33,901 bases of DNA from a virus. Where the stretch lies: IMG/VR virus record IMGVR_UViG_3300045256_000818, positions 1-33,901 of that record; one strand, written 5' to 3'. Shown one piece after another: positions 1 to 33,901 of the stretch (positions are counted from its first letter, which is position 1; each line of letters starts with the position of its first letter). A program made the position numbers and the translations under genes. The notes below the pieces were generated by a model that saw only the letters and a list, made by a program, of their open reading frames with translations, made no database searches and was not told the DNA's origin.

Positions 1-345
1 TCGCTTCATTGGCCGCACGGGGTGCGCGTCGTCGTTCGAGGCATCGGTCGCTGCCGGTGCCATAGACCGCGCTAGCTCGAAGAGGGCGGCCTGCTGGTTC
101 GGGGCCAGTGTTTCGAACAGGCGGGCCATAGCCGCGGTTCGGGAATCCAGTCCCTCATCGTCATAAATCTCGGTCCAATGGCAGCCGAGCGCCTTCGCCA
201 GGCGCCGCGCCCATTCGACGGTCAGCTTCCGCTCACCCTTCTCGAGGCGGTCGATCTGCGCCTGTGACGTCGCGGGCACGGTCGCATCGGCAAGGCGCTG
301 CTGCGACCAACCCAATTTGTCCCGAAATTCGCGCAGGCGGTTCAT
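1..345 (-). CDS. Xre/CI-like phage repressor (3' end cut by window edge)
   Basis: Reading leftward from ATG at 345-343 gives at least 115 residues with no stop before base 1, so the C-terminus is missing. Residues 1-60 are a typical Xre-family helix-turn-helix: MNRLREFRDKLGWSQQRLAD, then an SQAQIDRLEKGERKLTV recognition-helix region and WARRLAKALG. The rest is a short polar tail with no sign of an S24 LexA/CI autocleavage domain so far. It is the only leftward gene and faces the rightward Cro-like gene across a 93-bp region with three operator-like dyads, the standard layout of a lysogeny switch. I infer that it binds those operators and holds the lytic operon off. How it is inactivated cannot be read here. 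The family call is firm; the repressor role rests on position. Confidence 0.85.
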   Translation of the reverse strand, partial: MNRLREFRDKLGWSQQRLADATVPATSQAQIDRLEKGERKLTVEWARRLAKALGCHWTEIYDDEGLDSRTAAMARLFETLAPNQQAALFELARSMAPAATDASNDDAHPVRPMKR

Positions 346-438: not shown

Positions 439-660
439 ATGCAGCTGGACGATTGGCTTAAGAATCGCGACCCGGAAATGACGGAAGCTGAGTTCGGCGA
501 CCGCATCGGGAAGTCGCAGGCGGCCGTTAACCGGTACCGCAAGCTGCTGCGCTATCCCGAACCCGATGCGCTCGACGCCATCATGCGCGAGACGGACGGC
601 GCTGTCACCCCGAACGATTTCCTGCAGGCCTGGCGCCAGAAGACGGCGGCGGTGGCATGA
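439..660 (+). CDS. Cro-like HTH regulator
   Basis: 73 residues, the first rightward gene, divergent from the repressor. Residues 1-45 look like a Cro/Xre helix-turn-helix: MQLDDWLKNRDPEMTEAEFG, then DRIGKSQAAVNRYRKLLRYP with the usual turn and recognition helix. The C-terminal part (PNDFLQAWRQKT) is the short tail common in YdaS/Cro-like proteins. Size and position opposite a repressor make it the probable Cro, which would act at the same three operators. There is only a weak AGG upstream, and the predicted promoter would place the transcript start at the ATG. It overlaps the next gene by ATGA. Confidence 0.8.
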   Translation: MQLDDWLKNRDPEMTEAEFGDRIGKSQAAVNRYRKLLRYPEPDALDAIMRETDGAVTPNDFLQAWRQKTAAVA

Positions 661-950
661 GCAAGACTGTTTCACGTGAAACCGTCTCGCTCACCGGGAT
701 GCGGAAGCGCCGCCGGCGTGGCCCGGGCGACGACTGGTCGCCGGTCGATGAGGCCAGGCTCAGGCTGCTGCGCAAGCGCGGCCTGACCCGCGCCGAGCTC
801 GAGGGCCAGTTCCCGGGCCGGACGCTCAGCGCCATCCGCAACAAGCTGCACCGCATGGGGGTCGTGATCCAGCCGCATCGCGCGCCGGCCTTCCTGCCTG
901 ACCGCCGTCGTCGCGCGGATCGCGAGATCCCCGAAGACGATGCTGCGTGA
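657..950 (+). CDS. GcrA/Myb-like DNA-binding protein
   Basis: 97 residues. Residues 26-64 (DDWSPVDEARLRLL, then GLTRAELEGQFPGRTLSAIR, then NKLHRMGV) follow the pattern of Myb/SANT-type and GcrA-type helix-turn-helix domains: W, E, L..L, G, R-T-x-x-A-I-R-x-K-x-H-R-M-G. The N-terminus carries a basic RKRRRRG patch and the C-terminus is rich in Arg and Asp. GcrA is a cell-cycle transcription factor of alphaproteobacteria, and phages carry many small homologues of this fold, so I call it a DNA-binding regulator without claiming GcrA function. The start at 657 overlaps the upstream stop by ATGA; a second in-frame ATG is at 699. The codons between the two starts contain the parS-like palindrome described separately. 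Confidence 0.6.
   Translation: MSKTVSRETVSLTGMRKRRRRGPGDDWSPVDEARLRLLRKRGLTRAELEGQFPGRTLSAIRNKLHRMGVVIQPHRAPAFLPDRRRRADREIPEDDAA
664..687. promoter_or_regulatory. parS-like palindrome inside an early gene
   Basis: The core GTTTCACGTGAAAC (669-682) is a perfect 14-bp palindrome. TGTTTCACGTGAAACC (668-683) matches the conserved bacterial ParB binding site TGTTNCACGTGAAACA at every position except the last. The dyad extends to AGAC/GTCT on each side, giving 24 bp with one mismatched pair. It encodes TVSRETV in the first codons of the 657 gene. No second copy was found in the window. The sequence match is direct; ParB binding is inferred. Confidence 0.7.
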
Positions 951-4457: not shown

Positions 4458-4965
4458 GATCGTGCAAGCCGCGAAGATCATCAGCGCGACGCGCGGCGGT
4501 GACGGCAAGTGGACGCTCGGCCTCGAGGGCGGCTACATCGTGACGCTCGACCAGGCCGTGACGGCACGCTATGAGCCGCAGGCCGGCGACTACCTGGTGA
4601 AGTACCCGCCCGACGACTATCTGTCGATCTCGCCCGGCAAGACCTTCGAAGATGGATACACCGAGATCGTCAGCCGCGATGAGGGCATGACATTCGGCCA
4701 AGCTCTCGAGCAGGTAAAGCGCGGCGCCAAGGTCGCGCGCGCCGGCTGGAACGGCAAGGGAATGTACATCGCCTTGCAGCCGGGCAGCGTGATCAGATCC
4801 GATCAGGCCCGCGGCGGCGTCGCGCTCGAGCTCTCCAAGGAAGGGAAGCCGGAGATCGTAATCCTTCCGCACATCGACATGAAGTCGGCGCAGGGCGATG
4901 TGGTGGTCGGGTGGCTTGCCTCACAGACCGACATGCTCGCGACCGATTGGGCGATCGTGCTCTGA
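4435..4965 (+). CDS. Tad2-like (DUF2829) anti-Thoeris protein with extra N-terminal domain
   Basis: 176 residues. Residues 85-176 are a DUF2829 domain: MTFGQALEQVKRG, ARAGWNGKGMYI at 101-112, PHIDMK at 145-150 and GWLASQTDMLATDW at 159-172. DUF2829 includes Tad2, which sequesters the cyclic-ADPR-type signal made by the Thoeris ToxN-independent TIR sensor ThsB and so stops activation of the NADase effector ThsA. All hallmark stretches are present. Residues 1-84 (YRSHKIVQAAKI..., then SPGKTFEDGYTEI) form a second small domain that also occurs alone or fused in phages, role unknown. The domain assignment is confident; anti-Thoeris activity is inferred from the family, since not all DUF2829 proteins have been tested. 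It sits between small accessory genes and the primase. Confidence 0.75.
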   Translation: MKTYRSHKIVQAAKIISATRGGDGKWTLGLEGGYIVTLDQAVTARYEPQAGDYLVKYPPDDYLSISPGKTFEDGYTEIVSRDEGMTFGQALEQVKRGAKVARAGWNGKGMYIALQPGSVIRSDQARGGVALELSKEGKPEIVILPHIDMKSAQGDVVVGWLASQTDMLATDWAIVL

Positions 4966-9723: not shown

Positions 9724-11213
9724 GCGAGACTCTGAGCCTGGTCTACAAGCCGGGCGGCCCGGTGCTGCGCGACTTCATGCGGAGCCAGAAACCCGTTCAG
9801 CCGCTCATGGGTCCGGTCGGGGGCGGGAAGACGCGCGCGGTGCTGACCAAGGGCGTGAAGTGCGCGCAACGCCAGCGGCCGTCGACGCGCGACGGCCTGC
9901 GGAAGTTCAAGCTCTGCGTCGTGCGCGACACCTATCGGGATCTCTGGCGCTCGACGATCCCCAGCTGGTGGAAGGTGATCCCGAAGAATGTCGGCGAGTG
10001 GGTCGGCGCCGAAGGCGACCCCGTGACACACACGATCGACTTCGCGCTCGCCGACGGCACGCGCGCGCGGTACATCCTGCAATTCGTGGCGATCGGCGAC
10101 CAGGCCGTCGAAGACGTGCTGCGCGGTTACGAGGTCAGCGCGTTCTATCTCAACGAGGCCGATCGATTGAGCCGCGACGTCTTCACCTATGCGCGATCGC
10201 GCACCGGCCGCTTCCCCGACATGGACGAAGGCGGCCCGACCTGGCATGGCATCTTCGCCGACTACAACGCGCCCGACACCGAGAATTGGACCTTCACCGA
10301 TTTCGACGACAAGCGCGCCGACGACGTCGATTTCTTTCGCCAGCCGTCGGGCCTGTCGCCGCAGGCCGAGAACCTGATGAACCTGCCGCCCGACTACTAC
10401 AAGAACATGATCAAGGGCCAGCCGGATTGGTGGGTGCGGCGCTTCGTGCGGAACGAATACGGCTATAGCCGCGACGGCCTGCCGGTCTATGGCGAGTGGG
10501 TCGATTCGATGCACGTCGCCGAGATCGAACCGATCCCTGGCCTCAAGCTCCTGATCGGCGCCGACGCGGGCCTGACGCCGGCGGCGGCGATCGGACAGCG
10601 CCTTCCTTCCGGCCGGTGGCTGATCCTCGCCGAAGTGATCGGCGAGAAAGGCATGGGCGCACGTCGCTTCGGCCGAATGCTCGGGCAATACGTGCGGGAG
10701 CACTTCTCCGGATTCATGAGCATAGAGGGATATGCGGACCCGTCGGCGGCCTACGGCGCCGATCGGCAGAACGACGAGCAAGACTGGATCGAGATGGTCC
10801 AGGACGAAAGCGGCCTCTGGTTCATGCCCGCGCCGAGCAACAATCTCACGCCACGCCTCACCGCGGTGCGCGAGCCGTTGACGCAGCTGATCGACGGCAA
10901 GCCGGCCTTTCTGCTCCATCCGCGGTGCACGCAGCTGCGCAAGGGCTTCAACAGCGGATACCGATATCGACGGATGCAGATCCCGGGCATGGAGCGTTAC
11001 GACGACAAGCCGGAGAAGAACGAATATTCGCATCCGCACGACGCGCTGCAGTACCTGATGCTCGGCGGCGGCAGCGACTATGAGATCGGCGATCGGCGCG
11101 ATCGCCTGAGCTCGAGCACCAGGCAGACCACGGCGATCTCGACGGATCATCCGCGCGGCGAATGGGGGAACGGCAATGGCGGTCGCCAGCGCTTTGCGAT
11201 TAACGAGGAATGA
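9720..11213 (+). CDS. terL: Terminase large subunit
   Basis: 497 residues from GTG 9720, which overlaps the preceding stop and follows a G-rich ribosome site. The N-terminal ATPase has Walker A GPVGGGKT at 31-38 and a Walker B-like AFYLNEAD near 141-148. The C-terminal RNase H-like nuclease shows its three acidic positions in LIGADAGLT (D282), YADPSA (about D340) and HPHDALQYL (D441). It is the motor that cuts concatemeric DNA and packages it into the prohead. An open extension upstream to 9567 adds 51 Arg/Pro/Ser-rich residues with no terminase character and is rejected. The length matches podovirus large terminases. Confidence 0.92.
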   Translation: MSETLSLVYKPGGPVLRDFMRSQKPVQPLMGPVGGGKTRAVLTKGVKCAQRQRPSTRDGLRKFKLCVVRDTYRDLWRSTIPSWWKVIPKNVGEWVGAEGDPVTHTIDFALADGTRARYILQFVAIGDQAVEDVLRGYEVSAFYLNEADRLSRDVFTYARSRTGRFPDMDEGGPTWHGIFADYNAPDTENWTFTDFDDKRADDVDFFRQPSGLSPQAENLMNLPPDYYKNMIKGQPDWWVRRFVRNEYGYSRDGLPVYGEWVDSMHVAEIEPIPGLKLLIGADAGLTPAAAIGQRLPSGRWLILAEVIGEKGMGARRFGRMLGQYVREHFSGFMSIEGYADPSAAYGADRQNDEQDWIEMVQDESGLWFMPAPSNNLTPRLTAVREPLTQLIDGKPAFLLHPRCTQLRKGFNSGYRYRRMQIPGMERYDDKPEKNEYSHPHDALQYLMLGGGSDYEIGDRRDRLSSSTRQTTAISTDHPRGEWGNGNGGRQRFAINEE

Positions 11214-11361
11214 GCAGCTGCAGATCGGGCGCGCCGTGCTGATCGCACGGCGCAACCGGGTGAAGTGGAAGGTGCTCAAGGAGATCTACAATCTCGGCCG
11301 CACCAGGCTGTGGATGCTCGCGCGCGAGGCGGAGGCGGCCGACCAGGTGCGGGCCAACTAA
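11176..11361 (+). CDS. Small HTH-like protein after terminase
   Basis: 61 residues overlapping the terminase 3' end by 38 bp. Basic and helical: LIARRNRVKWKVLKEIYNLG, then RTRLWMLAREAEAA, a possible helix-turn-helix. A shorter start at TTG 11194 would reduce the overlap. Directly after its stop lies a 24-bp perfect palindrome, so autoregulation is conceivable. Not recognised as a named family. Confidence 0.55.
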   Translation: MAVASALRLTRNEQLQIGRAVLIARRNRVKWKVLKEIYNLGRTRLWMLAREAEAADQVRAN

Positions 11362-11381
11362 AGTGTTCATGAACACTTTAG
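11358..11381. promoter_or_regulatory. 24-bp perfect palindrome
   Basis: CTAAAGTGTT-CATG-AACACTTTAG, perfect over 24 bp and overlapping the TAA stop of the small HTH-like gene. As RNA it could form a 10-bp stem with a 4-nt loop, but the stem is AT-rich with no U tract, so a protein-binding operator is more likely than a terminator. It is the longest perfect dyad noticed in the window. Confidence 0.7.
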
Positions 11382-33346: not shown

Positions 33347-33901
33347 ATGAACACCGACAACGACACGAAGACGGGCGACGCCGGCGCCGGCGATCCCGGC
33401 CAGGCAACCGGTGCGGGCGCGAGCTCGAGCAATGCGACGCCGTCAGCCGCGGCCGACGGCGCCGATACAACCGCGGCGGCATCCTCGGGCGCGAGCTCGG
33501 CCGCCGGCACTACCGGCGTGGACGCCGGCGCCGGCGGCGCCGCTGCGGACCAGGCCGGCGGCACGGTTGCGGCCGGCGACGTCAAGGGCACCGACCAGCC
33601 GACGCCTTACGAGCAGGTGCATCAGAAGCTGCTCGAGCACGTGCGGAGTAACCCGAACGTGTCGGACCGCGCGCATCACGACGCCTTCCGCGCGATCGCG
33701 ACCGAGCACGGCGTCAGCCATCATCCCTGGCTGGCCGAATTCGAGGATCTGCTCGAATCGGAAAAGCTGAAGTTCCTGGCCTGGCTCGCCGAGATCCGGG
33801 AGTGGATCGCGAATCCGGCGAATCACGGCAAGGTCGAGAACGCGGCTAAGGATGGGGTCGATCCGAAGCCGATCGACGGGCCGGCCAAACCGGCGGCCTG
33901 A
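33347..33901 (+). CDS. Low-complexity terminal protein of unknown function
   Basis: 184 residues; the stop is the last base of the window. Residues 1-80 are Ala/Gly/Ser/Thr-rich and probably disordered. Residues 85-184 are helical (YEQVHQKLLEHVRSNPNVSD, then AHHDAFRAIATEHGVS and ESEKLKFLAWLAEIREWIAN). No catalytic motif or membrane segment. Strong GAAAGGGAAAG ribosome region. Downstream of lysis genes such proteins are often moron or virion accessory genes, but nothing here decides this. Confidence 0.55.
   Translation: MNTDNDTKTGDAGAGDPGQATGAGASSSNATPSAAADGADTTAAASSGASSAAGTTGVDAGAGGAAADQAGGTVAAGDVKGTDQPTPYEQVHQKLLEHVRSNPNVSDRAHHDAFRAIATEHGVSHHPWLAEFEDLLESEKLKFLAWLAEIREWIANPANHGKVENAAKDGVDPKPIDGPAKPAA

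Follow-up and report, generated by a model that had tools for sequence, protein, structure and literature searches.

A candidate host-type parS site at the start of an early gene in a phage fragment without recognisable partition domains

An early gene at one end of a 33.9-kb virus record (GC 0.664; 33,901 nucleotides, the whole of which is referred to here as the window) begins with a sequence that closely resembles the ParB binding sites of bacterial chromosomes, which raises the question of whether this likeness is meaningful and, if so, whose ParB would use it. The sequence in question, TGTTTCACGTGAAACC at 668-683 on the plus strand, is a candidate ParB site of the parS type in which the outermost base is C instead of A. 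In line with the original prediction, it agrees with the parS consensus TGTTTCACGTGAAACA at all positions except the last, and it is the single site in the window at up to three mismatches; the 14-bp core GTTTCACGTGAAAC is perfect at 669-682. The predicted 24-bp dyad with one mismatched pair at 664-687 (AGACTGTTTCACGTGAAACCGTCT) is present as well, and its symmetry reaches further, from 658 to 693. A 14-bp match of this kind had been considered improbable by chance in 34 kb, and the calculations agree: under a dinucleotide-Markov model, 2.4e-5 cores and 4.2e-5 16-mers with at most one mismatch are expected in the window, and none of 100 dinucleotide shuffles contained a site at up to three mismatches to the consensus. 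Among 420 composition-matched palindromes, parS alone was present. As the window holds 23 perfect 14-bp palindromes and three 24-bp dyads with at most one mismatch, the dyad as such is less special than its parS identity.

The features around the site are as follows.

1-345, minus strand: cI-like repressor gene, cut by the window start (HTH_3, E 9e-12; phrog_3 repressor, E 8.5e-12)
355-431, no strand: possible cI/cro operator region with GGTAT/ATACC elements, recognised by eye and different from the parS sequence
439-660, plus strand: cro-like HTH gene (phrog_35 repressor, E 3e-5), sharing an ATGA overlap with ORF 657
657-950, plus strand: early gene holding the site, MSKTVSRETVSLTG..., encoding a small putative DNA-binding protein (phrog_323 transcriptional regulator, weak, E 5e-4)
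658-693, no strand: extended dyad around parS, 16 of 18 pairs matching, with 664-687 as its inner 24 bp

The location at the start of an early phage gene was thus correctly predicted, with the site spanning the last base of codon 4 through codon 9 of ORF 657-950. The cI-like gene is divergent from the cro-like gene and this ORF. For the product of ORF 657-950, a Pfam search gave no match at E 0.01, and no homologue was found in viral, phage and plasmid collections, one of these searches being sensitive to close relatives only; a genome search gave weak matches in 8 of 396 genomes (best E 3e-5). On its 3' side follow a methyltransferase gene, two primase-like genes and then the structural genes, comprising portal (head-tail connector), protease/scaffold, major head protein, tail, internal virion protein and endolysin. 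The nearest match of the connector is to HTVC010P-like pelagiphages, at 43% identity. Neither an integrase match nor tRNA genes nor end repeats were found in the window. The window begins inside the repressor gene (1-345) and finishes exactly on a stop codon (33347-33901), a pattern suggestive of a provirus cut back to gene boundaries without its integrase side. We infer that the phage is temperate, that its host is an alphaproteobacterium and that its left end is missing from the fragment.

The original prediction had also assigned the site to the kind found on host chromosomes, and this is supported by its distribution. Among 385 alphaproteobacterial genomes, 23 contain the exact 16-mer and 1 contains the reversed control pattern. 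Twenty-six of the bacterial loci were fetched and the ORFs of 19 were scanned; the gene at or near the 16-mer was GidB/RsmG in nine, a ParA-type ATPase in two, MnmG (GidA) in one and MnmE in one, with another gene or nothing in the remaining six. Hence, rsmG, mnmG, mnmE or parA-type genes, the usual neighbours of chromosomal parS, accompany the 16-mer in 13 of 19 loci. In several of the rsmG genes the coordinates place the 16-mer in the VSRET reading frame, as in the window. To judge from sequence and neighbourhood, the exact 16-mer represents a true chromosomal parS of Alphaproteobacteria. Half-site positions 1 and 6 presumably both fall within the intact core of the window site. These are the two positions at which parS differs from the Noc site according to structural work (PMC7383237).

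The palindrome goes beyond what the encoded peptide requires, and VSRE need not produce it. In 11 family-supported window genes, GTT, TCA, CGT and GAA make up 3.7%, 1.0%, 6.4% and 32%, respectively, of the codons for their amino acids. Under window codon usage (GC3 87%) the probability of this codon combination given VSRE is 7.3e-6, and only 3 of 5535 four-codon windows are equally rare. The argument is softened by a preference for A/T-ending codons near gene starts, as GC3 in 17 window genes is 0.74 in codons 2-12 vs 0.87 afterwards.

The same site is frequent in other viruses. In a virus collection the core was found in at least 120 stretches and the exact 16-mer likewise in at least 120, whereas one control palindrome was found in 26 stretches and another in 18. 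The flank type that distinguishes the window 16-mer is present at 3 of the 26 and 3 of the 18 control sites, so that about three 16-mer stretches would be expected by chance. An outer flank T..A was seen at 93 of 147 listed core sites vs 1 of 26 and 2 of 18 control sites. Related contigs inflate such counts; on clustering, 120 listed 16-mer loci reduce to 70 groups and 120 listed core loci to 82. The listed 16-mer loci range in GC from 0.33 to 0.72. Within 12 contigs fetched by a control palindrome no site at up to two mismatches was detected, and the parS core count was zero in partial stretches from 44 control-palindrome loci and 14 relatives of the window.

In the virus contigs with parS, the site lies within terminase, portal, tail and replication genes and also between genes. 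Of 265 listed sites, 122 lie in an ORF of 120 aa or longer, and 28 mostly long ORFs were picked by hand from these. Eighteen of them had a PHROG match and ten had none; 13 carried a named phage function, namely terminase large subunit (4), primase/helicase (2) and, with one case each, portal, head closure, tape measure, primosomal protein, scaffold, DNA polymerase and tail protein. In ten of these 13 the site is inside the PHROG-matched stretch, and in L116, L239 and L206 it is just outside. One of the 28 ORFs, from L020, additionally matches the 'ParB C-terminal domain' PHROG. Chromosomal contamination as the sole source of the viral matches was rejected, given the 13 of 28 ORFs with named phage functions. 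Contigs L029 (2658-3443), L074 (10536-11461) and L087 (241-960), each with a terminase gene as well, have three to five cores packed into about 1 kb, and L248 has three cores at 45-bp spacing within one 477-aa open frame (4750-4853).

Sites were also found in cultured phages. Nineteen named phage records, chosen by homology and scanned whole, amount to 0.95 Mb, for which uniform base frequencies predict about 0.004 core sites; two of them contain the core and 17 have no site at up to two mismatches. The core is present once in Pelagibacter phage HTVC027P and three times in Ruegeria phage RpAliso, and we take both phages to be lytic. The RpAliso cores (OR257569.1; 140695, 147105 and 148087) lie among short hypothetical genes in the last 9 kb of the record. 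Among contigs collected by terminase homology (the best 80 of 597 matches, without the query's own contig), 7 of 79 contain the core; of 419 further palindromes matched for composition, the most frequent is present in 1. This family was first noticed through the parS of its members, and five of the seven core contigs were already in the parS scans; with those five removed, there remain two sites in 74 contigs vs one for the next palindrome. In a contig family related by terminase to HTVC023P/HTVC027P (L116, L213, L218, L220, L280 and about 25 further loci), parS lies close to the gene for the large terminase, in positions that vary between members.

Whose ParB could use the site was addressed by searching for partition domains. 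In the window, which is a fragment, neither ParB_N (PF02195) nor ParA (PF13614) gave a match. HTH_ParB (PF17762) matched the cro-like HTH protein with 12.1 bits, under the cut-off of 22.6; this was taken as generic HTH similarity. With no ParB or ParA domain over the cut-off, the phage's own ParB was rejected as the user of the site for the window fragment. In the 41 listed parS contigs of at least 30 kb, ParB_N was found in eight at E 0.001, six of these over the curated cut-off; in the comparison sets it was detected in two out of 16 control contigs and in a single one of the 14 viral relatives of the window. As 33 of the 41 are without ParB_N, ParB carriage fails to explain most parS contigs, with the proviso that virus records may be fragments and absence of ParB from them is no proof. 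The closest relative of the window by its primase/helicase protein, L127, encodes a ParB_N protein (620-aa frame, G458:16411-16725) and has no parS site at up to two mismatches despite this gene.

The explanation that we favour, with a probability of about 0.7, is that the window site is an orphan host-type parS which would load host ParB onto the DNA of a phage without a visible ParB of its own. Binding, spreading, recruitment and benefit are all proposals. CTP-bound ParB recognises parS, closes as a clamp and spreads, as described in a survey of ParB-fold proteins that also covers phage ParB proteins (PMC12704722). Host CTP-bound ParB dimers would thus recognise both GTTTCAC half-sites, either after injection or on the prophage, close on the phage DNA and slide over a few kb into the adjacent early region. 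The phage DNA would thereby be tagged as centromeric, and host ParA, plus MipZ and SMC where present, could be recruited. The likeliest benefit would be that host DNA segregation is used, or disturbed by competition, as long as phage genomes are present free or in multiple copies, with a local influence on early transcription as a possible secondary effect. A wider version of this proposal is more tentative, and we would give it slightly less than even odds: orphan host-type parS may be a widespread selected feature of tailed phages, which without a ParB of their own would load host ParB clamps to join or sabotage host chromosome segregation and division. Selection would then act on the presence of the site and not on its position, as the site moves among relatives, and here ParB would also reach the immunity region.

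Chromosomal parS sites of the ParABS systems of Caulobacter and other Alphaproteobacteria have the same 14-bp core consensus as the window site, whereas the latter is a single copy inside an early gene, on a phage fragment without ParA or ParB domains over the cut-off. Phage-plasmids such as P1, N15 and those among the mycobacteriophages encode their own ParABS. In these, parS serves partition together with the phage's own partition genes, unlike the window, which has a parS and no such domain over the cut-off. A closer parallel is SGI1, a mobile element with copies of another replicon's parS: its parS-like sites hijack the ParABS of IncC plasmids, and it is bound and stabilised through the ParB of that replicon (PMC10954446). 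SGI1 parasitises a plasmid system, whereas in the window a phage would draw its ParB from the host chromosome. A study of a staphylococcal phage discusses phages with parB and without parA (PMC10286716). Outside the 2007 survey of parS by Livny et al., which it did not cover, a literature search turned up no description of a host-type parS in phages that lack ParB. We file the case under parasitism on a resident partition system, a kind already known, with the host chromosome's system as the proposed new target.

Consequences of additional parS sites have been described for Caulobacter (PMC5815017). Viability fell by a factor of about 100 to 1000 when one of the stronger sites was placed on a plasmid and did not fall with the two weak ones, and the authors explained the toxicity by segregation of the plasmid instead of the chromosome; extra sites on the chromosome were tolerated or not, depending on their position. 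A multiplying phage genome could, like the parS plasmids, be segregated in place of the chromosome. More generally, phages may borrow the host chromosome-segregation machinery, and if host ParB binds via such sites, ParABS, MipZ and SMC would be a target or tool of many phages at once.

Besides attachment of the phage genome to host segregation machinery, the original prediction had offered two further possibilities, silencing by ParB that spreads over the lysogeny switch and sensing of host ParB. Silencing or tuning of the switch, or such sensing, would complement the orphan parS and not contradict it. The site is about 230 bp from the start of the cro-like gene and about 320 bp from that of the cI-like gene, both starts being upstream of it, and Caulobacter ParB spreads up to 2 kb around a single site, a value measured in an E. 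coli host (PMC5815017). Against this, sites in other virus contigs occupy many places, late genes included, are present in the two cultured phages taken to be lytic, and are not intact in the related prophages. With sites in terminase, portal, tail and replication genes, in intergenic positions and in HTVC027P and RpAliso, the specific link to the switch did not find support, and the closeness to cI/cro may be accidental. We regard a role at the switch as rather unlikely.

The extended dyad bears on a different explanation, in which it would be the operator of one of the phage's own regulators (the cro-like protein, the ORF 657 product or another) and its parS likeness accidental. Outside the core, 9 of 11 pairs of the dyad at 658-693 match. 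Nine or more matching pairs outside the core were counted at one site in each comparison set: the one among 251 further viral parS sites that differ in their flanks equals the window dyad, and the one among 44 control palindromes exceeds it. The 36-bp dyad is thus more than parS needs and rare among viral parS sites, and it adjoins the cI/cro region within the gene for a putative DNA-binding protein; the sub-threshold HTH_ParB match of the cro-like HTH also fits an operator. However, given a palindrome, the chance that its centre is the 7-bp parS half-site is about 1/16384 at uniform bases, the possible cI/cro operators recognised by eye consist of different, GGTAT elements, and an accidental likeness does not agree with the strong enrichment of the identical 16-mer in other viruses over both controls. 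An operator of this kind therefore appears unlikely.

Chance alone would require functionless 16-mers one base off the consensus to turn up among millions of virus contigs. In its favour, the site was picked by eye from one of many windows, and an intact site is absent from every relative examined. The helicase-like protein as a single query brought up no relatives, and alignment of the second primase-like protein (685 aa) yielded 14 viral contigs and six Sphingomonas genome contigs. Ten of the 14 viral relatives have a weak integrase match, every one below the curated cut-off. The intact core is present in none of the 14 viral records, scanned whole, in none of five whole Sphingomonas genomes with related prophages and not in the stretch of the sixth genome; the 20 fetched stretches of relatives contain no site at up to three mismatches. 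All five Sphingomonas genomes have sites with one or two mismatches, of which five of nine places read TGTTCCACGTGAAACA, one base off the window core. A version with two mismatches, TGTTTCACGAGAAACC, which is one base from the window 16-mer, is found in L135 and L139 (records G466:9615-9630 and G470:18762-18777) and in a Sphingomonas genome (G003:C175:71889-71904); it sits in a tail-region protein gene reading VSQTVSRET and is preceded by another GTTTCAC half-site. The results from the relatives speak against simple lineage conservation and would fit sites being gained, lost and moved. Against chance stands the excess over the roughly three stretches suggested by the controls, from which it follows that a randomly met 16-mer is mostly not a chance match; we consider this explanation very improbable for the window.

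Least probable of all is an RNA hairpin acting in translational coupling or attenuation with an accidental parS match, since the predicted stem, which begins at the AUG of ORF 657-950 and overlaps the stop codon of the upstream gene, folds unremarkably (z -1.36; 21 of 200 shuffles equally or more stable) and leaves the parS identity unexplained. Elsewhere in the window, a perfect 24-bp palindrome, CTAAAGTGTTCATGAACACTTTAG at 11358-11381, begins at the stop codon of ORF 11176-11361. Its core was not found in the fetched loci, and as RNA it has a z of -3.6, with 2 of 200 shuffles as stable.
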